A DNA stretch of 23,014 nt from a virus. The stretch covers positions 1 through 23,014 of IMG/VR virus record IMGVR_UViG_3300006735_000280. The stretch is one strand, 5' to 3'. This document shows, piece by piece, positions 539 to 17,614 of this stretch; position 1 is the first letter of the stretch; each line of letters begins with the position of its first letter. The notes under the pieces are model-generated. The model saw only the letters and a program-made list of their open reading frames with translations, was not told where the DNA came from and searched no databases. A program made the translations under genes and the position numbers.

Positions 539-912
539 TAATCTCTCTCCCATTCTCCTTCGTGGAATCCATCCGCGAAGTGTTTAGTTTCTCTTATTTT
601 GGTTGCAGATATTTCACCTATATCTTTTGGTGGTACGTGTTCAATTATATCATATCCAACACCACGTCCATAATTTACAGATTCTATATCGGGTATAATC
701 ATAACTTTAATAGTTCCTTCTTCTATAAATTCTTTTAACTGAATTTGTAAATTATCATAAACTTCTTCACAAGTAAATGGATTATTCTTATCTGGCATCA
801 TATCTCGAATACAAATTAAAACATTTTTACCCTCTTTTAGTCTTTGGTCAATTAACCATTGATGACCTTTGTGCCAAGGTTGCCACCTACCTACAAACAT
901 TGAGTATTTCAT
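538..912 (-). CDS. HxGH-motif nucleotidyltransferase (NMN/cytidylyltransferase-like)
   Basis: This 124-residue protein belongs to the HxGH nucleotidyltransferase superfamily, whose members transfer a nucleoside monophosphate from ATP or CTP to a phosphorylated substrate. 'GRWQPWHKGH' at 8-17 carries the HxGH signature, 'NPFT' is at 44-47, and 'ISATKIR' at 101-107 matches the second phosphate-binding ISxTxxR motif. The spacing and the NPFT element resemble small NadM-type NMN adenylyltransferases, but the protein is shorter than most (about 165-180 residues), so the substrate is uncertain. Alternatives are a glycerol- or sugar-phosphate cytidylyltransferase or a phosphopantetheine adenylyltransferase-like enzyme. 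Its start has GAGGAG about 8 bases upstream and overlaps the end of the APS-kinase-like gene by 26 bases, so the two are very probably co-translated. Confidence 0.82.
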   Translation of the reverse strand: MKYSMFVGRWQPWHKGHQWLIDQRLKEGKNVLICIRDMMPDKNNPFTCEEVYDNLQIQLKEFIEEGTIKVMIIPDIESVNYGRGVGYDIIEHVPPKDIGEISATKIRETKHFADGFHEGEWERD

Positions 913-1297
913 CTATACACTCCTCTATTGTGTTGTCTGTATTTATCTTTACAAAGTTTTCTGTTGGTGGTTCATAATTTTCAACATGATATTCTTTTCG
1001 TAAATTACGTTTAGAATGTAAATAAAAAACTTCTCCGATTCTCATATCACGATAAGGTGAAACCAAAGATACTAATACCAAGTATCCTTTGTTATCCATA
1101 ACCTTTGCCATATTAATGACAAACTGAATGTTCTTTCTACGTCCTTTTTCTGAATAGTCTTGATTATCCAAAATATCTCGTAAGTCATCACCATCGAGAT
1201 GTATAATTTTCTTTGAAGTGCAAAATACTCTGTTTTGAAGTTCTTTACACAATGTTGTTTTACCTGAACCTGGTTGACCTGTAAACCATAGAATCAT
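887..1297 (-). CDS. cysC: Adenylylsulfate (APS) kinase-like P-loop protein, shortened
   Basis: APS kinase phosphorylates adenylyl sulfate at the 3' position to give PAPS. This 136-residue protein has the family landmarks: P-loop 'GQPGSGKTT' at 7-15, 'HLDGDDLRDIL' at 33-43, and 'SLVSPYRDMR' at 77-86, corresponding to the ISPYR segment. It is clearly shorter than the usual 170-200 residues. The later part carrying DPKGLYKKAR..FTGID, which forms the substrate lid in cellular CysC, is replaced by a short 'LHSKRNLRKEYHVENYEPP' stretch. The kinase fold is therefore confident, but true APS specificity is not certain. It is the first gene after the baseplate block, has a weak AAAGG ribosome site and overlaps the downstream nucleotidyltransferase. 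The symbol reflects family resemblance only. Confidence 0.82.
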   Translation of the reverse strand: MILWFTGQPGSGKTTLCKELQNRVFCTSKKIIHLDGDDLRDILDNQDYSEKGRRKNIQFVINMAKVMDNKGYLVLVSLVSPYRDMRIGEVFYLHSKRNLRKEYHVENYEPPTENFVKINTDNTIEECIDEILNVCR

Positions 1298-6063: not shown

Positions 6064-7749
6064 TTACTGTGAGTTCAACATTCGTCCCAACATAACCATT
6101 ACTGGATTGTTGGTCGCTGCTCCAACTGCCGTTACTGCAGGTGCAACATCACCACCAACCTTCTTTAAATTATCCCCTAAGGCCCTTGTTAATTCCTTTG
6201 TTGCCTTTGTTAATTCTTCTGTTGCACTTATTGATTGTTGTTGTAGTTTAGTTTCTTTTTCTTCTGTGCTTATTTCTAAAGGTTTTCCTGCAACCAACCT
6301 ACTTAATTCACCCACTTCAACTCCAATTGCAGATGCTAATTTTTTCCTTTGTATTGCATTTAATCGAGTGAATTCTTCTGCACTTCCCAATTGTTGAATT
6401 ATATCGTTTGTGGCCCCCACGATATCATTATCTATGGCTAACATTCTAGCCCTATCAAAGTTTATATTCCTACCAATCATCATCGAGGCTTCCATAGCAG
6501 AAGTTATAGAGGTTTCAAAGTCTAATAATGAGTCTGTAATTTTTAAAGTTGTTGCCAACTCTACACCCATTTTTGCTGCTTGAACTGCTGCCATAGCAAT
6601 ATTTTTCATACTTGAGTCGGTGTAGGCTGCAAACTCTTCTGCACTTGTTGCCATATCTTGAAGTACTACACCACTATCTACAAGATTATCTCCAGCCAAC
6701 TCAGTAACTGCATTAACTAATTCCAAACCACCCGTGAAATCAGTATTACCCATATCGGAAAATAACCTAGCCATATTTGCTATGTTTTCTTCTGTTGCAC
6801 CTGATTTGATTGCTAATGTTGTTAAGGCCTTTACGTTTTCTTTATTTACATCACGAGTACCTCTCGTGGCAGTGAAAATTGCCTTTGCACTTTCTCTAAT
6901 ATCACCACCAAGAGCTGCAGCCTGTAGTTGAAATCCTGGCATAGTTTCAGTAACAGCTGCAAGTTTTATAGAAGTTCCAAGACCTGCATTTAATTCTTCA
7001 GAAAAATTTTGTGCTGCCTTAAATCCCTTAACGAAAAAACCAACTACAGCTATTAGTGCTCCTAATATGGCCATAAGTGGATTGGCTTTAATTGCAAGTG
7101 CAAACTTCTTAGCTTGTTTTCCCATATCTTTGAATGCAGTAACACTTGAACCCAACGTCCCCAATGCCATATCAAGAAGTTTATTACGTCTTTTAACTTT
7201 ATCGGCAGCCTCTCCAACTATTTCACTTTCTTGTTGTAGTAAACCTAACCTTTTTTTAATAACTTTTAATTCTTTAGGAGCAAGTTTCCCAGCTTCTTTA
7301 AGAAGTTCTGAAATTTCTTCTTGAACCTTTTTAGAATCATAATCCACAATATTTTTAGCTGATGTACTGTTAAGAACGTGTTCCTCTGTTTCTGAGATTT
7401 TTGATAATAAGGATGAATAATCACTACTGAAATCTTTGGTTTTTCTAATGGAGTGAGATATGGCTCGATTTGCAGTTTGACTTTCTCTTAGATTTTTAAT
7501 CTGTTGTACAAGACTATTTGTTGTATCACTTAGTAAACTATTGTGAGTTCTACGTGTTCTGGTCACGTCCTCTTGTATTTTACGTTTTTTTTCTTCGTGT
7601 TTTAAAATCTCTGCGTTATTGTTAAGGATTTTTCTCTGGTCTGTTATGAATTGTTGTTTTGCACCAGCACCCTTACCTAACTCGGCATTAATTCTGACTT
7701 CGAGGTCTAATTGGTCTTGTTTTAGTTTATTAAATTGAGCTTGATCCAT
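6064..7749 (-). CDS. Tail tape measure protein (T4 gp29 position)
   Basis: This 561-residue protein is mostly helical. Residues 1-200 are heptad-rich coiled coil with many Lys, Glu and Gln. A hydrophobic segment 'PLMAILGALIAVVGFFV' lies at 224-240, followed by a long Ala-rich helical domain (about 245-490) with 'SSMKNIAMAAVQAAKMGVE' and 'LNAIQRKKLASAIGVEVGEL', a pattern I associate with phage tape measure proteins. If fully helical along the tail lumen it would span about 84 nm (0.15 nm per residue), close to a T4-type tail; gp29 of T4 has 590 residues. The order tube, chaperone-like gene, then this gene supports the call. The ATG at 7749 lacks a good ribosome site at normal spacing (AAGGA lies 13 bases upstream), but an in-frame stop upstream makes it the first available start. 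Confidence 0.85.
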   Translation of the reverse strand: MDQAQFNKLKQDQLDLEVRINAELGKGAGAKQQFITDQRKILNNNAEILKHEEKKRKIQEDVTRTRRTHNSLLSDTTNSLVQQIKNLRESQTANRAISHSIRKTKDFSSDYSSLLSKISETEEHVLNSTSAKNIVDYDSKKVQEEISELLKEAGKLAPKELKVIKKRLGLLQQESEIVGEAADKVKRRNKLLDMALGTLGSSVTAFKDMGKQAKKFALAIKANPLMAILGALIAVVGFFVKGFKAAQNFSEELNAGLGTSIKLAAVTETMPGFQLQAAALGGDIRESAKAIFTATRGTRDVNKENVKALTTLAIKSGATEENIANMARLFSDMGNTDFTGGLELVNAVTELAGDNLVDSGVVLQDMATSAEEFAAYTDSSMKNIAMAAVQAAKMGVELATTLKITDSLLDFETSITSAMEASMMIGRNINFDRARMLAIDNDIVGATNDIIQQLGSAEEFTRLNAIQRKKLASAIGVEVGELSRLVAGKPLEISTEEKETKLQQQSISATEELTKATKELTRALGDNLKKVGGDVAPAVTAVGAATNNPVMVMLGRMLNSQ

Positions 7750-8053: not shown

Positions 8054-8734
8054 TCATGATTGTTGATTTATATATTCTTCTACTACTTTTGCAGCAACTT
8101 TATCTGCATTTTCATTTGGATGAGCATCATAAATAATTCTATTTTTTGGATGTTGCCAAACCCAATACTTTTTAGATAAATTACTTCTACCTGTCAAACC
8201 ACGTTTCATATTTTTTTCTGCATAATTTTTGTAATCTAAATCATCACAATCTTCTTCTTTTTTACAATAACCAGACTTACCCTCAAAAGACAAATGAATG
8301 TGTTTCATATTGTTATCTTGGAAAAATTTAACAAACTGATTATCTATATCTTCTCCAAAATCAAATGGATGTCTTAATGGATAACCACCAGTATTATATA
8401 GAAAGAAAATTACGTTAGAGTGTAAATTATTAATATCCAAAAGTAAATTTTTGTATTCAGTTAATAACTTTTCAATTGAATCTTGTTTGTTTTGTTGGAA
8501 AGAATGTACAAAATTTTGGTGTGTTTGTTTCGTATCACCACGTGAAAATGTCCTGATAGGTGTGGGTAATTGACACACTACAGCCTCTATCTCAACATTG
8601 TTTTGATAATTTTTTATTGTTTTTTCAATTAAAGATAATCCCTTACCATGTAAACTTCTTTTAATTGGACTTACAAGTTTTAAATAATCTGGCCATTTAT
8701 CCGTCCAACTACAACCAATACATAAAACTTTCAT
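8054..8734 (-). CDS. SGNH/GDSL hydrolase-like protein
   Basis: This 226-residue protein begins with a beta strand and 'IGCSWTDKWPDYL' (6-18), matching block I of the SGNH fold with Ser9 as candidate nucleophile (Cys replaces the usual Asp of GDS). It ends with 'IIYDAHPNENADKVAAKVV' (201-217), matching block V with Asp203 and His205. 'FFLYNTGGYP' (110-119) may contain the oxyanion Asn (114), but blocks II and III are not obvious. SGNH enzymes are esterases or deacetylases acting on glycans and lipids; several phages carry such proteins, but here the target is unknown and catalysis is inferred. It is not a standard T4 tail component and looks like an insertion between the chaperone and tape measure genes. 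The start overlaps the 30-aa ORF as ATGA. Confidence 0.72.
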   Translation of the reverse strand: MKVLCIGCSWTDKWPDYLKLVSPIKRSLHGKGLSLIEKTIKNYQNNVEIEAVVCQLPTPIRTFSRGDTKQTHQNFVHSFQQNKQDSIEKLLTEYKNLLLDINNLHSNVIFFLYNTGGYPLRHPFDFGEDIDNQFVKFFQDNNMKHIHLSFEGKSGYCKKEEDCDDLDYKNYAEKNMKRGLTGRSNLSKKYWVWQHPKNRIIYDAHPNENADKVAAKVVEEYINQQS

Positions 8735-8836: not shown

Positions 8837-9070
8837 TTATAGTTGTCTTTGAATGGTTTTTGGTGGTTCTTGTGTGGTTGATGATTTATTATATGCAACA
8901 CTTTCTTTCTCTTTAATCTCAACCAACTTATTCATATAATATCTTCTCCAATGGACTGGCATATTATATAAATCATTAAAAGTGAATCCATTACTAAAAT
9001 GACACAATGAAAATATTTCATCGTGTATTGATTTTTTATAACTCTGACTTAGGCCAAAAAAACGTAACCC
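8837..9070 (-). CDS. gp51/gpT-like frameshifted extension of the gp26-like gene (no own start codon)
   Basis: An open frame between TAG at 9071-9073 and TAA at 8837-8839 lies +1 to the gp26-like gene and overlaps its last 35 bases. It has no ATG or GTG until the middle of the conserved-looking part. Its translation is protein-like: 'SYKKSIHDEIFSL', 'SNGFTFNDLYNMPVHWRRYY' and 'MNKLVEIKEKE', then a Pro/Gln tail. The 'IHDEIF...YNMP.W.R.YY' pattern resembles small proteins I associate with the position just after gp26-like genes in T4-like phages, possibly acting in hub or tape-measure assembly. The likely product is a fusion: gp26 residues 1-252, then a shift at TTTTTTT (9056-9062), then about 72 residues, about 324 in all. 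Alternatives are initiation at a TTG or a homopolymer sequencing error. Confidence 0.7.
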   Translation of the reverse strand, partial: GLRFFGLSQSYKKSIHDEIFSLCHFSNGFTFNDLYNMPVHWRRYYMNKLVEIKEKESVAYNKSSTTQEPPKTIQRQL

Positions 9071-9812
9071 CTATCGGTATATCTACCGTATGGGGCTCTC
9101 CTATTCCACTAACATACTCTGTAGTCATATCCACATCTGGTGTGATTGACTTTACATGCTTTCTAAACTCTTTTGTATCTAAAGAGAGAAACTGATTATC
9201 AACAAAATTATTTATTGTTTTTTTAGTCGTATCTCCATCTACAGAAATGATTTGTTGTTTTAAACGAGTGGTGAGTGTTGGATCTACGCCCGTAGATTTT
9301 GATATAGATTTTAGTGCCTTGACCGTTTGTTCTATTTCTGATTCATCTTTGTGAGTTAATAATTTAAATTCAATGACTCGTTTTGAATTGGGTAACTCAA
9401 ATGAAAATTTATTTTCACCACTTTCAAAAATAGAATCTTTTGGTGATGTAAATTTCAAAGTACTTAAATCCACCACGATTTCCTTTTTAAGTCCAGAATC
9501 AGGATCTACAATCTCTACGGTGTAATCTTTACCATATCCCAAAATTCTAGCACCCAACATAATCGCATTTTTATCACCAATCAACATATCATCTAACTTG
9601 ATTGATTTATCTGGAATTATAGACTCAAACAATTTATCTAAAACAATTCCCTTTTGAATCAGATTAGTAGAGGTTAAAATGTCCTCTTCTTTTGCAGTCA
9701 TATATTTTATCTCTATAGTACCACTTGAAAGTGGACTATCTTTTGGATATAATAATCCTTTTGAAGGCAAATCTAATACCTCAGTAGGAAAATCATATTG
9801 ATTTTCAGCCAT
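9036..9812 (-). CDS. T4 gp26-like baseplate hub / tail assembly chaperone-like protein
   Basis: This 258-residue protein has the hallmarks of the T4_baseplate (gp26-like) family: 'LPSKGLLYPKDSPL' (15-28), 'IKYMTAKEEDILTSTNLIQKG' type segment (35-55) and 'IKLDDMLIGDKNAIMLGARILGYG' type segment (71-94). In T4 gp26 (208 residues) takes part in hub assembly. The gene lies between tube and tape measure, exactly where long-tailed phages keep the gpG-type tail assembly chaperone, so a tape-measure chaperone role is a reasonable inference. The ORF ends 'GVTFFWPKSEL', but seven T at codons 251-253 allow a shift into the start-less frame extending to 8837. The start at 9812 has AAAGGAG 7 bases upstream. 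Confidence 0.82.
   Translation of the reverse strand: MAENQYDFPTEVLDLPSKGLLYPKDSPLSSGTIEIKYMTAKEEDILTSTNLIQKGIVLDKLFESIIPDKSIKLDDMLIGDKNAIMLGARILGYGKDYTVEIVDPDSGLKKEIVVDLSTLKFTSPKDSIFESGENKFSFELPNSKRVIEFKLLTHKDESEIEQTVKALKSISKSTGVDPTLTTRLKQQIISVDGDTTKKTINNFVDNQFLSLDTKEFRKHVKSITPDVDMTTEYVSGIGEPHTVDIPIGVTFFWPKSEL
9056..9062 (-). promoter_or_regulatory. Candidate programmed frameshift site (T7 run)
   Basis: On the coding strand the zero frame reads ACG TTT TTT TGG. A Phe tRNA on TTT can re-pair perfectly one base forward (next codon GGC) or two bases back (extra TTT, then GGC); either enters the open frame ending at 8837. A -1 shift instead reads TTG GCC TAA and stops at once. The zero-frame stop TAA comes 18 bases after the run. 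Frameshifts of this kind, mostly -1 but sometimes -2 or +1, are known for tail assembly chaperone pairs of long-tailed phages. I see no obvious stimulatory pseudoknot in the AT-rich sequence that follows. Confidence 0.6.
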
Positions 9813-10041: not shown

Positions 10042-10533
10042 TTAGAACGACAATACTGCGTAATCGTAACGAAGTGTTAGAGTAATATCAGCGACGTCCG
10101 TTGTATTTGAAAAATCTAAGTCATTAAAGTTTGCTGATTGAATAAATGCACCATGTAATACCCACTCTTCTACCTTGTCACCTACTGGCCCTAATAGATT
10201 AAATCTAATCTCTTTTTTATACATATCTGAGTATCCCTCACGACCTGTTACTGCTTCGTGATGTTGGTTTACCCATTCCATTACAGCCTGTGCTCCACTT
10301 GGAACGATAGGATCATAAAGAGTTATTTCTAATTGTTCCCAAGTAGCTTTACCTTTAAGATATCTTTTGGTGTTGATATGATGCAATTCTATTTCATCAA
10401 AAGTAATGTTAGGTCTTGCCATTGCCTTTACAAAGTAAGAGGGTATATCTTCAATGTACATGATGAACCTATTTTTAGTTTTTGGTTCAAACGGTGTAAA
10501 AAAGATTTCGTCTTGATTCAGAATCTCGGCCAT
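10042..10533 (-). CDS. 19: Tail tube protein (T4 gp19-like)
   Basis: The inner tail tube is built of hexamer rings of this protein and is the conduit for DNA ejection. From the start I choose, the protein has 163 residues, the same length as T4 gp19. An upstream in-frame ATG (10587) and one at 10539 exist, but AGGAG at 10541-10545 lies 7 bases before the ATG at 10533 and only one base before the 10539 one, so 10533 is the likely start ('MAEILNQDEIFFTPFEPKTK'). Tube features include 'KNRFIMYIEDIPSYFVKAMARP', 'GKATWEQLEITLYDPIVPSG', 'LLGPVGDKVEEWVLHGAFI' and the closing 'DVADITLTLRYDYAVL' strand pair. It directly follows the sheath gene and terminator, as in T4 (18 then 19). Confident. Confidence 0.93.
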   Translation of the reverse strand: MAEILNQDEIFFTPFEPKTKNRFIMYIEDIPSYFVKAMARPNITFDEIELHHINTKRYLKGKATWEQLEITLYDPIVPSGAQAVMEWVNQHHEAVTGREGYSDMYKKEIRFNLLGPVGDKVEEWVLHGAFIQSANFNDLDFSNTTDVADITLTLRYDYAVLSF

Positions 10534-10575
10534 TTTCATTCTCCTGTTAATATGCCGTTTAAATGCTATTACATA

Positions 10576-10583
10576 TATAAATA
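10576..10583 (+). promoter_or_regulatory. T4-late-promoter-like TATAAATA on the opposite strand
   Basis: TATAAATA is the exact T4 late promoter -10 octamer, here oriented away from every annotated gene. Downstream on the same strand the terminator hairpin is followed by CTTTT, so a transcript of roughly 90-100 bases could be made. In AT-rich DNA the octamer can occur by chance, so this is a candidate only. Confidence 0.25.
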
Positions 10584-10584
10584 T

Positions 10585-10604
10585 CACTTTCTTAAAAAAA
10601 AGTG
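10585..10604. repeat. Inverted repeat CACTTT / AAAGTG
   Basis: A six-base-pair stem (10585-10590 with 10599-10604) around an eight-base A-rich loop, in the sheath-tube gap. It could be a weak hairpin in the tube gene leader on the minus strand. No T run follows a G/C-rich stem, so it is not a convincing terminator. Confidence 0.35.
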
Positions 10605-13504: not shown

Positions 13505-13813
13505 TTAATCTTTTAATTCATCTATTTCATTTAAAAGTTTTAACGAATCGACTTCTGATTTTAGTTCTTTGATAGATTCTATCAAAATTGGTACTAATTT
13601 ATTATAGTCTACAGACTTAAACTTTCCTCTACCATTCAATCCTTGTTGTTCTTTCACAAGTTCAGGAACGACAGCTTCAACTTCTTGTGCTAACACACCA
13701 ACATCATGTCCCATATCTTTTCGTTTCCAATCATACTCAACACCTCGAAGTTGCATCACCGTATCTAAACCATATTTCATATCTGTAATGTTTTCTTTCA
13801 AGTTCATATCGGA
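13505..13813 (-). other. Peptidase_S74 intramolecular chaperone domain
   Basis: Residues 1268-1369 of the long fibre. The conserved Ser-Asp (1268-1269), LKENI, the 'YDWKRKD' strand, 'GVLAQEVE' and a terminal coiled coil are present. Self-cleavage before Ser1268 is expected from the family. Confidence 0.88.
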
Positions 13814-16800
13814 TGCCACGGTAGATGAGAATGCAACAACGTCACCATCAGCGTGGAATGTTCCACCACTTGCCAATCTAAACTCTTCAACATTAGATAG
13901 GTAAATTTTAATATTATCATCAGTTCCAAAATCAATCCAATCACCACCACTATCTCTACCAACTTTTAATGATGTGTTATAGATAGAGGATATACCTGTT
14001 TGTGCTGCACTTGTACTTAAAGCAACTGTACCATCACCAACCGCGGCGTCTATACCAGTTGATGCTAAAGTACTTGCTGCCATAACTGCCGGCCCACTTG
14101 AACCACCAACTATAAGTTCACCATCATCATCCATTACGGCCGTACCAACTTGGTCAGTACTACTATCTTGTGAAATCAATACTGCTTTATTTGCTAAGGT
14201 CTCTGCTCCTGTTCCACCACTTGATACGGCTAATGGTGTATCAACAATGGTTACCGAAGAAAACGTACCAATGGTACCCGAACCAGATATAGTTGAGACA
14301 TCTAAATGTCCAAATGAACCAGTAGAGGTTGATTTACTAAGGAAGTCTCCACTTGCACTTACAGTACCTTCAACAACAATTCTTTCTGCACTATTACGTG
14401 TGTCAATTGTTAATACTGAAGTACCACCTGCTCCTGCGTCAAATGTTAAGGCATTTGCGTTGTTATCTATTAAATCTATATCGGTAGCTCCAGCTGTTAG
14501 TGTAATATCTCCACCAGTTAAAGTTAAATCTGTAAATGTTGGACTATCACCTGTACCAACTCCGATTGAAGTTCTTAATGTTGCTCCACTTTCTGCTACT
14601 GGATCTCCACTTCCATCACCAACAATCATCTGTCCGTCAGTAAGAACTGACATAGCTGTAATCGCTCCTGTTCCACTTCCAAGTAGAACACCACCATCAG
14701 TTAATGTACTTGCTCCTGTACCACCATCGGCTACAGTCAAGTCAGTAATTCCTGTGATTGTACCACCCTCAATGGTTGCCGTAGTAAATGTTCCGATAGA
14801 TGCACTTACACTTGAACCAGATATATTAGTGGTTCCTGAAGTATTTCTAAATATAACTGAAGCGTCTCCACCAGTGAACGAAGCACTGATAGAATTTCCA
14901 CCAAGTGCCCCCACTACAAAATCTCCACTACCACTCAATGTTCCAGATGTTTTTACAACTCCAGTTGAAGTAACATTACCGACTGCTAAAGTACCAAAGG
15001 TAACATCTGCGTCAGACGTAACGTCTTGGTTAATCGTTGAGTTTGCCTCAATCGTTATAGTTTTAAGACCATCACCTCTGTTTTGACCTAACGTGGTTCC
15101 ATAAACTGCTGAACCCGTTATAGTACCAGTTGAAGTTATATTACCCACTTCAACAATATTTCCTGTGAGTTTAAGACTTCCTTGAGAACTACTCATGTAG
15201 GCTGAATTACTACCTACCCATAAATCTGTACTACCACTAATCAATCCAGCAACTCTTAGTTCTCCACCACCGATTACCAATTTATTAGATGAGTGAACTA
15301 TAGTCATATCTCCATTATTGAAATCAACTACTCCACCACTACCTAAGAATAAATCACTAAACATTTTTGATGAAGTACCAAGTGCTATATCATCATTTGT
15401 ATTTGGTTCAATAGTTCCATCTTTAATATGTATTTGGTCTGCACCTGCTGCTTCAAACGTTATAACGTCATCCGCTGATGCTCGAATTGATGTATCTAAA
15501 TCATCATCTAAATCTATTCTACCTTGACCATCTAAGGTTACATTATCAGTAAATATATTAGACCATTGTGTTCCACTTGCACCTAATGTGTATACACTAT
15601 CTGTACCGACAGTAAAGTTTCCAACAATATCACCCGAACCTGTTATTTGTAAACTACCAGTTACTTTATGGGTGTCGTCTGTAGTATCACCCAATATATT
15701 ACTACCACTTGCGAATGAAGCGGTGATATAACTTACAGAAGAACTCACAATAATTTCTTGTGCGGTTAATCTTCCTGTAAGAGTTGCTGATGCAAATTGT
15801 ACATCAGCGTCTTTTGTTAAATCTTGGTCTACTGTTGCGTTATCTTCAATTGTTAAAGTTTTAGAAGCTGCTCCATAAGTTATAGTACCACTACTTCCAT
15901 CACCAACTGTAAGAGATTCATTCATTGTAAGTGTATTTGCTTGTCCAGCTCCAGTCAATACAATGTTTTGTCCATCACTAACAGTAAGAGTTTCATTTAA
16001 TACTAATTCATGTAAACCCGTACCTGTACTACGTTTAATCTCAGTAAAGTGTCCGAATGAACCACTAACACCACCCGATGCAGTTACTTGAGCTTCAACT
16101 TCTAAACCACCACTTAACTTGACTTTTTCTGCGTCGTTAGTGGTGACAATTTCTAATATACCATTCTTACCACTTGCATCAAATGATAATGCAGAGGCGT
16201 TATTGTCAATCAAATCAACATCAGTTGCCTGACCAGTTAGAGTTATATCTCCAGTGGAAGTTACTCCTGCAAATGTTACTGATGCGTCACTTGTTAAATC
16301 TTGGTTTATCCTTGAGTCATCCTCTACAGTAAGTGTTTTAGATGCTCCACTATATGTTAATGTACCATCATTACCATCTCCAATTGTAAAAGATTCATTT
16401 AAAGTAATTGTTTTGAGACCACCACCTGTGTTTTGTCCAAGTGTTGTACCGTAAACTGCTGAACCACTAACTGTGCCCGTTGAGGTTACATTACCTACCG
16501 ATAAAGTACCTAAAGTAGCATCTGCATCTGTAGATAAGTCTTGGTTTATAATTGAGTTTGCCTCAATTGATATAGTTTTAAGACCACCACCAGTATTCTG
16601 TCCAAGTGTTGTACCGTAAACTGCTGAACCACTAATTGTTCCAGTTGAAGTAACATTTGTTGCGGATAATGTTGCTCCACTAAATGATAAATCACTATCC
16701 TCTGATAATAATCCGGCAGTTCCGTATACAGCGACTCTACCAGAAGTTTGGTTATCAGCTGTTAAGGTATTTGCTCTAAATCCGTGTGCTCCAATATCTA

Positions 16801-17614
16801 AATTACCACCTGCTGTCAATGAGGTTATTCCATCTATAGTTCCACCATTAATATCGGCCGAAGTAAAGATAGCATTTGACGCGGATACGACTGAACCTGA
16901 TATATTTGTGAAATTACCAGTAGTTGCCGAACTGACACCTATTGTTACTCCATCAATAGTACCACCATTAATATCAGCATCGGTGATGGTTACTTGTGAT
17001 TCACCACCTAAAGTAACACCATCTATTTCTCCACTACTTATATATGCTGCTACAGCGTCTCCGTCTGTACCGAGTTGGTCAATATAACCAATTCCATTTA
17101 CATAAATGTCTTTCCATTGTTTAGCACTTGAACCTAAATCAAATGAGTTATCATCATTTGGAATTAATGAAGATGAAAATTCAGCTTCCATTACTACATC
17201 ATCAGAATCCGAATCACCAATGGTTATTTGTCCACCAAGTGTTAAATCACCAGTTACTTTAGCATTACCTTGTATATGTAATGAAGAACCACTTATAATT
17301 GAACCACTAATATTTGCAGCTGCTCCAGAACCACTTGTAAATATAACACCATCTTCATCTGCCTTGATTTGTTGTAAAATAGTTCCGTCTGGTCTTACAA
17401 AATTTATAGAGGAAGTTGCAACAAATATTTCTTTCCAAGTTTGTGTCGCACTACCTAAATCGTAGGTTTCACTGGTTGTTGGTACGAAATCTGCACTTGA
17501 ACTAATTGCAGATTGTGCCTGATTCAACTCCAGTATCGATGCAGTTGAATTGGAGGTTATACCTTTCGGATTGTGTAATTCGGCGTTAGTTAACGCACTA
17601 TGTAATTTAGCCAT
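13505..17614 (-). CDS. Long repetitive tail fibre with C-terminal Peptidase_S74 chaperone
   Basis: This 1369-residue fibre is made of beta-rich repeats. Four 'DLGS....W..I/L' type modules occur near residues 51-65, 156-172, 675-690 and 743-756. Repeated 'VYGTTLGQN.G.GLKTI' units are at about 332, 387 and 837, 'ADINGGTIDG' at 213 and 253, and 'GGTGA' repeats at 964 and 1133. The end is an intramolecular chaperone of endosialidase type (S74): 'SDMNLKENI' at 1268-1276, 'MQLRGVEYDWKRKD' and 'VGVLAQEVEAVVPELV', then a coiled coil (1345-1366). In this family the domain helps trimerise the fibre and cuts itself off just before the conserved Ser, here Ser1268. The fibre probably contacts the host surface. 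It starts with GAGG 7 bases before ATG. Fibre role confident; receptor unknown. Confidence 0.92.
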   Translation of the reverse strand: MAKLHSALTNAELHNPKGITSNSTASILELNQAQSAISSSADFVPTTSETYDLGSATQTWKEIFVATSSINFVRPDGTILQQIKADEDGVIFTSGSGAAANISGSIISGSSLHIQGNAKVTGDLTLGGQITIGDSDSDDVVMEAEFSSSLIPNDDNSFDLGSSAKQWKDIYVNGIGYIDQLGTDGDAVAAYISSGEIDGVTLGGESQVTITDADINGGTIDGVTIGVSSATTGNFTNISGSVVSASNAIFTSADINGGTIDGITSLTAGGNLDIGAHGFRANTLTADNQTSGRVAVYGTAGLLSEDSDLSFSGATLSATNVTSTGTISGSAVYGTTLGQNTGGGLKTISIEANSIINQDLSTDADATLGTLSVGNVTSTGTVSGSAVYGTTLGQNTGGGLKTITLNESFTIGDGNDGTLTYSGASKTLTVEDDSRINQDLTSDASVTFAGVTSTGDITLTGQATDVDLIDNNASALSFDASGKNGILEIVTTNDAEKVKLSGGLEVEAQVTASGGVSGSFGHFTEIKRSTGTGLHELVLNETLTVSDGQNIVLTGAGQANTLTMNESLTVGDGSSGTITYGAASKTLTIEDNATVDQDLTKDADVQFASATLTGRLTAQEIIVSSSVSYITASFASGSNILGDTTDDTHKVTGSLQITGSGDIVGNFTVGTDSVYTLGASGTQWSNIFTDNVTLDGQGRIDLDDDLDTSIRASADDVITFEAAGADQIHIKDGTIEPNTNDDIALGTSSKMFSDLFLGSGGVVDFNNGDMTIVHSSNKLVIGGGELRVAGLISGSTDLWVGSNSAYMSSSQGSLKLTGNIVEVGNITSTGTITGSAVYGTTLGQNRGDGLKTITIEANSTINQDVTSDADVTFGTLAVGNVTSTGVVKTSGTLSGSGDFVVGALGGNSISASFTGGDASVIFRNTSGTTNISGSSVSASIGTFTTATIEGGTITGITDLTVADGGTGASTLTDGGVLLGSGTGAITAMSVLTDGQMIVGDGSGDPVAESGATLRTSIGVGTGDSPTFTDLTLTGGDITLTAGATDIDLIDNNANALTFDAGAGGTSVLTIDTRNSAERIVVEGTVSASGDFLSKSTSTGSFGHLDVSTISGSGTIGTFSSVTIVDTPLAVSSGGTGAETLANKAVLISQDSSTDQVGTAVMDDDGELIVGGSSGPAVMAASTLASTGIDAAVGDGTVALSTSAAQTGISSIYNTSLKVGRDSGGDWIDFGTDDNIKIYLSNVEEFRLASGGTFHADGDVVAFSSTVASDMNLKENITDMKYGLDTVMQLRGVEYDWKRKDMGHDVGVLAQEVEAVVPELVKEQQGLNGRGKFKSVDYNKLVPILIESIKELKSEVDSLKLLNEIDELKD
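16434..16470. repeat. Exact 37-base direct repeat, copy 1 (inside fibre gene)
   Basis: Identical over 37 bases to 16599-16635, with a period of 165 bases (55 codons). It encodes the 'SGSAVYGTTLGQ' unit of the fibre. A third, diverged copy lies near 15085-15115. The identity of the two close copies suggests recent duplication or gene conversion. Confidence 0.9.
16599..16635. repeat. Exact 37-base direct repeat, copy 2 (inside fibre gene)
   Basis: Second copy of the unit at 16434-16470; the surrounding bases differ on both sides, so the exact identity is limited to 37 bases, while the protein repeat is longer. Confidence 0.9.

Follow-up and report, generated by a model that had tools for sequence, protein, structure and literature searches.

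Does a single gene in the tail region of this phage specify both a short and a long tail assembly chaperone, by a programmed change of reading frame on a run of seven T? The window, by which we mean the whole 23,014-nt stretch analysed (IMG/VR record IMGVR_UViG_3300006735_000280), carries on its minus strand a gp26-like ORF ending in ...GVT FF W PKSEL*, with the codons ACG TTT TTT TGG CCT at the run (Table 1). The +1 frame stays open between 9070 and 8837, far above chance expectation, and translates as GLRFFGLSQSYKKSIHDEIF...YNMPVHWRRYY.... A protein joining the two frames would have 324 aa after a +1 shift and 325 aa after a -2 shift. The coordinates and description of the ORF, the T run, the +1 frame and the fusion of about 324 residues, as given in a preliminary description of the sequence, were all correct on recheck. 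That description had a +1 (or -2) shift on the run producing a G/GT-type pair, and this is still the best-supported reading, with +1 favoured over -2. From the sequence patterns set out below, it is likely that +1 programmed frameshifting on T7 makes a gpG/gpGT-type chaperone pair from one gene.

Table 1. Features of the chaperone locus and flanking tail genes, in window positions
Feature	Positions	Strand	Details
Tail tube protein	10042..10587	-	directly upstream in transcription direction; phrog_4542, E 9.6e-31
gp26-like zero-frame gene, putative short tail assembly chaperone	9036..9812	-	258 aa; AGGAG before ATG; TAA stop
Upstream hairpin (predicted)	9066..9097	-	3 nt before T run; AGCCCCAU-A-CGGUA-GAUA-UACCG-AU-A-GGGGUU
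Slippery run U7	9056..9062	-	begins 18 nt ahead of TAA
Zero-frame codon TTT (E site)	9062-9060	-
Zero-frame codon TTT (P site)	9059-9057	-
Zero-frame codon TGG (A site)	9056-9054	-
+1-frame extension, T-like C-terminal domain	8837..9055	-	72 aa + stop; first codon GGC at 9055
Second hairpin (predicted)	9003..9025	-	AT-rich, 10-bp, 37 nt after T7 start; kept in close relatives
Candidate tape-measure gene	6064..7749	-	downstream; from position and composition only

The gene lies where G/GT-type chaperones are found, between the tube gene and a putative tape-measure gene. The tube half of the gene order in the preliminary description stands on a profile match, and the tape measure remains a candidate, its product having no family match among Pfam and PHROG profiles and no significant similarity to the annotated tape measure of phage immuto. 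The order tube, chaperone, tape measure is annotated in LIS04 and also in immuto, where the tube is named a tail completion protein. Downstream of the chaperone locus and ahead of the candidate tape measure is a gene (8054-8734, minus strand) for a 226-aa protein of unassigned family.

The slip site and frame relation across relatives

A first round of 80 IMG/VR relatives (53–100% identical) and annotated phages gave 83 complete loci, window included, with TTTTTTTGG in the same phase at 78. A wider search reached 156 loci encoding 122 distinct fusion proteins, whose sites were TTTTTTTGG (n = 93), TTTTTTTAC (n = 19), TTTCTTTGG (n = 9) and TTCTTTTGG (n = 1, locus L240). The run was exactly T7 in 146 of 156 complete relatives, the remaining ten comprising nine TTTCTTT and one TTCTTTT, and no run of six or eight T occurred among the 156. 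The second frame was +1 to the gp26-like frame in 121 of the 122 distinct relatives, a relation retained with the slip site TTT TTT TGG and with its variants TTT TTT TAC and TTT CTT TGG. L240 is the sole relative with its domain outside the +1 frame; it is the only locus of the window family with TTC TTT TGG (L240:1501-2430), its T domain is in the -1 frame, and this reflects either an erroneous indel or a site that has truly changed.

The same relation was found in annotated distant relatives, with a +1 continuation in RM378, SP-15, LIS04, GXN1, Flavobacterium phage immuto and Microcystis phage Mel-JY01. Some of the distant sites differ in sequence, being TTT TTT CAC in SP-15, TTT TTT AGT in LIS04, TTC TTT CGT CCC CGA in GXN1 and TTT CTA TTC in the huge phage LR756508, with the +1 continuation still open in each. 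The main alternative raised beforehand was a homopolymer length error, or a one-base indel fixed in a dead or fused gene. A T7 homopolymer is error-prone; however, the exact run recurs from contig to contig, the nine TTTCTTT sites have the same frame relation and no long homopolymer, the cyanophage clade described below differs systematically, and both frames are under purifying selection. We reject this explanation, whose probability is close to nil, because the frame relation persists in relatives with as little as about 20% identity; the frame offset is real and not a sequencing error.

The same loci bear on RNA polymerase slippage, by which the seven-base homopolymer would yield mRNAs with six or eight U and the long form would arise by ordinary translation. 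The run needed for this is present in the window, but in the TTT CTT TGG variant a C interrupts the homopolymer, evidence against slippage during transcription. GXN1 likewise has no such run and keeps the +1 domain, and hairpin placement follows shift direction (see below). We regard this explanation as exceedingly improbable.

Codon choice at the site is strongly constrained. At the FFW motif, both Phe codons were TTT in all 51 distinct proteins of the first round, versus 7–28% TTC at seven other conserved Phe columns of the same proteins. In the wider set, the first Phe codon was TTT rather than TTC by 121:1, against 978:280 at the other Phe codons of the same genes (Fisher p about 1e-11, phylogeny ignored).

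The second frame as a coding sequence

Among close pairs, pN/pS was 0.297 in the +1 frame, whereas the other two frames gave 1.29 and 1.52; pN was lower than pS in the +1 frame in all 374 pairs, with changes mostly at third positions. In this stretch, protein-coding selection acts on the +1 frame and not on the others. Five residues of the extension (H, Y, P, R, Y) are invariant. The short form and the extension were folded separately with AF2, and the extension gave a confident three-helix model (pLDDT 86). A fold search with the extension gave no significant match (best E 0.016), and the match at E 0.34 to a protein of phage Moogle named as a tape measure chaperone is a hint only. The short-form model (pLDDT 86.9) matched the fold of an SP-15 hub subunit (E 1e-17) and of T4-like gp26 proteins, and the protein itself matched PF12322 T4_baseplate (E 5.9e-10) and phrog_150 baseplate hub (E 3.5e-13).

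T4 gp26 and gp51 are paralogues (E 1e-21), gp51 being the long one with an extra C-terminal segment, and the window-family extension aligned to this protein and to the cyanophage extension. Directly, the window-type extension matched gp51 weakly (E 0.004); full-length matches linked the window-type fusion to the cyanophage-type fusion (E 9e-8) and the latter to gp51 (E 8e-17), all three being single-comparison values. The fusion is thus homologous to T4 gp51 through the cyanophage form, and the gp51-like label given to the second frame is upheld by this chain. The PF12322 match, the gp26/gp51 chain and the fold matches suggest that both products are chaperones, the role of gp26 and gp51 as tail assembly chaperones (TACs) of T4 being taken from the literature. 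The 23 kb record holds a single gp26-family match, and no separate long-form gene as in T4. A search with SP-15 gp26 found no bacterial genomic relatives, and a search for solved structures found none.

None of the inspected annotated relatives has the two frames joined in its annotation. Small hypothetical proteins are annotated in the frameshifted T-domain region of immuto (L082:5851-5961), Mel-JY01 (L083:5740-5976) and SP-15 (L086:4755-4874). Furthermore, in Pseudomonas phage Cygsa01 the T-like domain has an ORF of its own that overlaps the stop of gp26 (TAATG; L094:3309-3482), a third route to such a domain.

Separate ORFs such as these four would fit independent translation of the second frame as a small protein, through internal initiation or reinitiation, the assumption behind the annotation of Mel-JY01, immuto and SP-15. 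However, 67 of the 122 distinct sequences, the window among them, have no ATG, GTG or TTG ahead of the second-frame core, and the remainder share no common start codon. Conservation of the slippery site would be unneeded under independent translation, and the domain is fused in frame in T4 gp51 and in one cyanophage-type locus (L168). Independent translation is therefore highly unlikely.

Hairpins around the T run and the direction of the probable shift

The upstream hairpin of the window, absent from the preliminary description and an extension of it, has a predicted energy of -16.4 kcal/mol, with a dinucleotide-shuffle z of -2.64 (9053-9107) and a synonymous-recode z of -4.83. A folding-energy scan along the gene reached its minimum in the 36 nt preceding the T run (-8.85 vs about -3 kcal/mol). 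A whole-family covariation scan for one upstream stem shape gave no single consensus, as the hairpins differ between clades, and we therefore used a synonymous-recode test in its place, in which recodings preserve the zero-frame protein and the last 39 nt before the T run are scored. The mean z was -2.06 (n = 112 distinct) compared with -0.23 in control windows, and 22 of 26 clusters (65% identity) had z < -1 (p 2.8e-8). The signal was absent in immuto, GXN1, LIS04 and SP-15. An excess of GGG codons 9 nt before the T run (56/73 vs 77/1587) was considered as a Shine-Dalgarno element and dropped; in the window this GGG is the 3' arm of the hairpin, paired with CCCC. In the FFGQP subclade (n = 20), the upstream signal (z -1.62) is accompanied by a strong downstream stem (z -4.04), a GC stem about 5 nt past the T run with compensatory changes (L043-L064), making this clade a possible -2 shifter. 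Published experiments with a 70S system found that a hairpin placed upstream promotes +1 shifts and dampens -1 shifts, a downstream pseudoknot having the reverse effect, and weak E-site pairing is reported to favour +1 (PMC6321510).

In the mechanism we infer, most ribosomes would terminate at 9036, releasing a short product of the gpG/gp26 type. In a minority, tRNA-Phe paired to the second UUU in the P site, with UGG in the A site still to be read, would move forward by one base along the U run; these ribosomes would continue in the +1 frame and complete a gpGT/gp51-like form with a helical T domain. The hairpin, refolding behind the ribosome beside the E site, would probably push forward and block backward slips, and weak UUU pairing in the E site would probably also aid the shift. 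For the long form we would expect the role of lambda gpGT, linking tape measure and tube protein.

The same two products could arise by a -2 shift, in which the peptidyl-tRNA leaves the second UUU and pairs anew two bases further back, after which U5-U7 is decoded as one more Phe. T7 permits perfect re-pairing of this kind, the required T at position 3 is invariant, the downstream stem of the FFGQP subclade is of the kind driving backward shifts, and -2 shifts are documented in Mu and arteriviruses (PMC5009743). However, the hairpin is upstream rather than downstream in most clades, and by their sequence the sites of GXN1 and LR756508 permit re-pairing after a +1 slip but not after a -2 slip. 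The near invariance of the first TTT fits weak E-site pairing under +1, yet it is also what a -2 slip needs, and we retain -2 as a rival for this reason while considering it unlikely. The +1 shift is favoured because of the upstream hairpin, the GXN1 and LR756508 sites and the prfB-like TTT CTT TGG variant. Points against it are the sense A-site codon (UGG or UAC), which pauses less than the prfB stop, the hairpin missing in four outgroups, the FFGQP downstream stem and the frame of L240.

Known frameshifting systems and cyanophage-type relatives

The locus shares with lambda G/GT (-1) a single gene before the tape-measure region, with a short form and a longer one, here predicted, that is reached by frameshifting and carries a C-terminal T domain, and differs from it in the +1 frame, the upstream hairpin and a 250-aa gp26-type N domain. 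The canonical -1 motif X_XXY_YYZ does not apply, as the second ORF is +1 and the zero-frame phase is TTT TTT TGG. T4 gp26 and gp51 are homologous short and long chaperones, but encoded by two paralogous genes where the window has one gene with a predicted frameshift. Phage Mu G/GT (-2) is a chaperone pair whose long form is likewise in the +1 phase; its slip sequence is different, a -2 shift is not the favoured reading here, and two-back re-pairing of the Mu type is possible on T7 and impossible at the GXN1 and LR756508 sites. With the +1 site of prfB (CUU UGA C, with an upstream Shine-Dalgarno duplex) the locus shares P-site re-pairing one base forward, at UUU U here and at CUU U in the nine TTT CTT TGG relatives, and a U-initial A-site codon. 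An upstream duplex beside the E site is also common to both, here the predicted hairpin, which is missing in some outgroups. This locus differs from prfB in that the duplex is an intramolecular hairpin, the A-site codon is a sense codon and there is no autoregulation.

Cyanophage-type relatives have the opposite, -1 arrangement, which goes beyond what was previously noted for this gene. They possess a homologous gp26 gene, equivalent Phe codons and a homologous T domain, but their domain follows T_TTT_TTC in the -1 frame, and their hairpin lies downstream, with none upstream. T_TTT_TTC was followed by a long -1 extension at 77 of 80 loci, and at two more the heptamer was present and the extension short or cut. 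Mean z (n = 65) was +0.40 upstream and -2.48 downstream. At cluster level the contrast with the +1 family, drawn from only 6 clusters of the -1 type, gave p 1.4e-4 upstream and p 0.17, not significant, downstream. Vibrio phage VmeM-32 and Variovorax phage V45v66 have -1 extensions too. In one cyanophage-type locus (L168:1501 onwards), gp26 and the T domain form one uninterrupted ORF, a natural in-frame fusion without a slippery run, and this phage may lack a short form or encode it at another place.

A tree of 51 sequences, unrooted and with some long branches, placed the +1 rows on one side of a branch with support 100/99. On balance we favour a single change of shift direction in the chaperone gene of the T4 superfamily, on a deep branch separating +1/upstream-hairpin from -1/downstream-hairpin lineages with equivalent Phe codons. 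If true, this switch would be a natural counterpart to the bidirectional duplex model, tested so far by reporter constructs, and the paired families would offer a comparative system for what sets the direction of ribosomal slippage. The +1 direction is the rarer one, and the hairpin is placed where, from in vitro work, one would expect it for a +1 shift.

G-T frameshifting is described as widely conserved among long-tailed phages, T4 excepted (PMC5009743), and T4-like chaperones have been described as using another mechanism. In the present data a large, mainly marine clade of the T4 superfamily bears a frameshifting signature, and annotators now split or miss the long chaperone. A passage of PMC12846349 attributes -1 poly-T signals in T4-like TAC genes to Vladimirov 2022, and one in PMC10274946, citing Vladimirov et al. 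2022, describes some T4-like phages as having two copies, one short and one a long fusion, in place of frameshifting. In the literature searched, with Vladimirov et al. 2022 outside it, neither the +1 form nor the hairpin contrast was reported, and their novelty is provisional.

Elsewhere in the window, an APS-kinase-like gene (PF01583, E 1e-19; 887-1297, minus strand) adjoins a cytidylyltransferase-like gene (PF01467; 538-912, minus strand), with a ThyX fragment nearby at 3-350. A 1369-aa repetitive fibre-like protein (13505-17614, minus strand) carries a C-terminal S74 intramolecular chaperone domain (PF13884).
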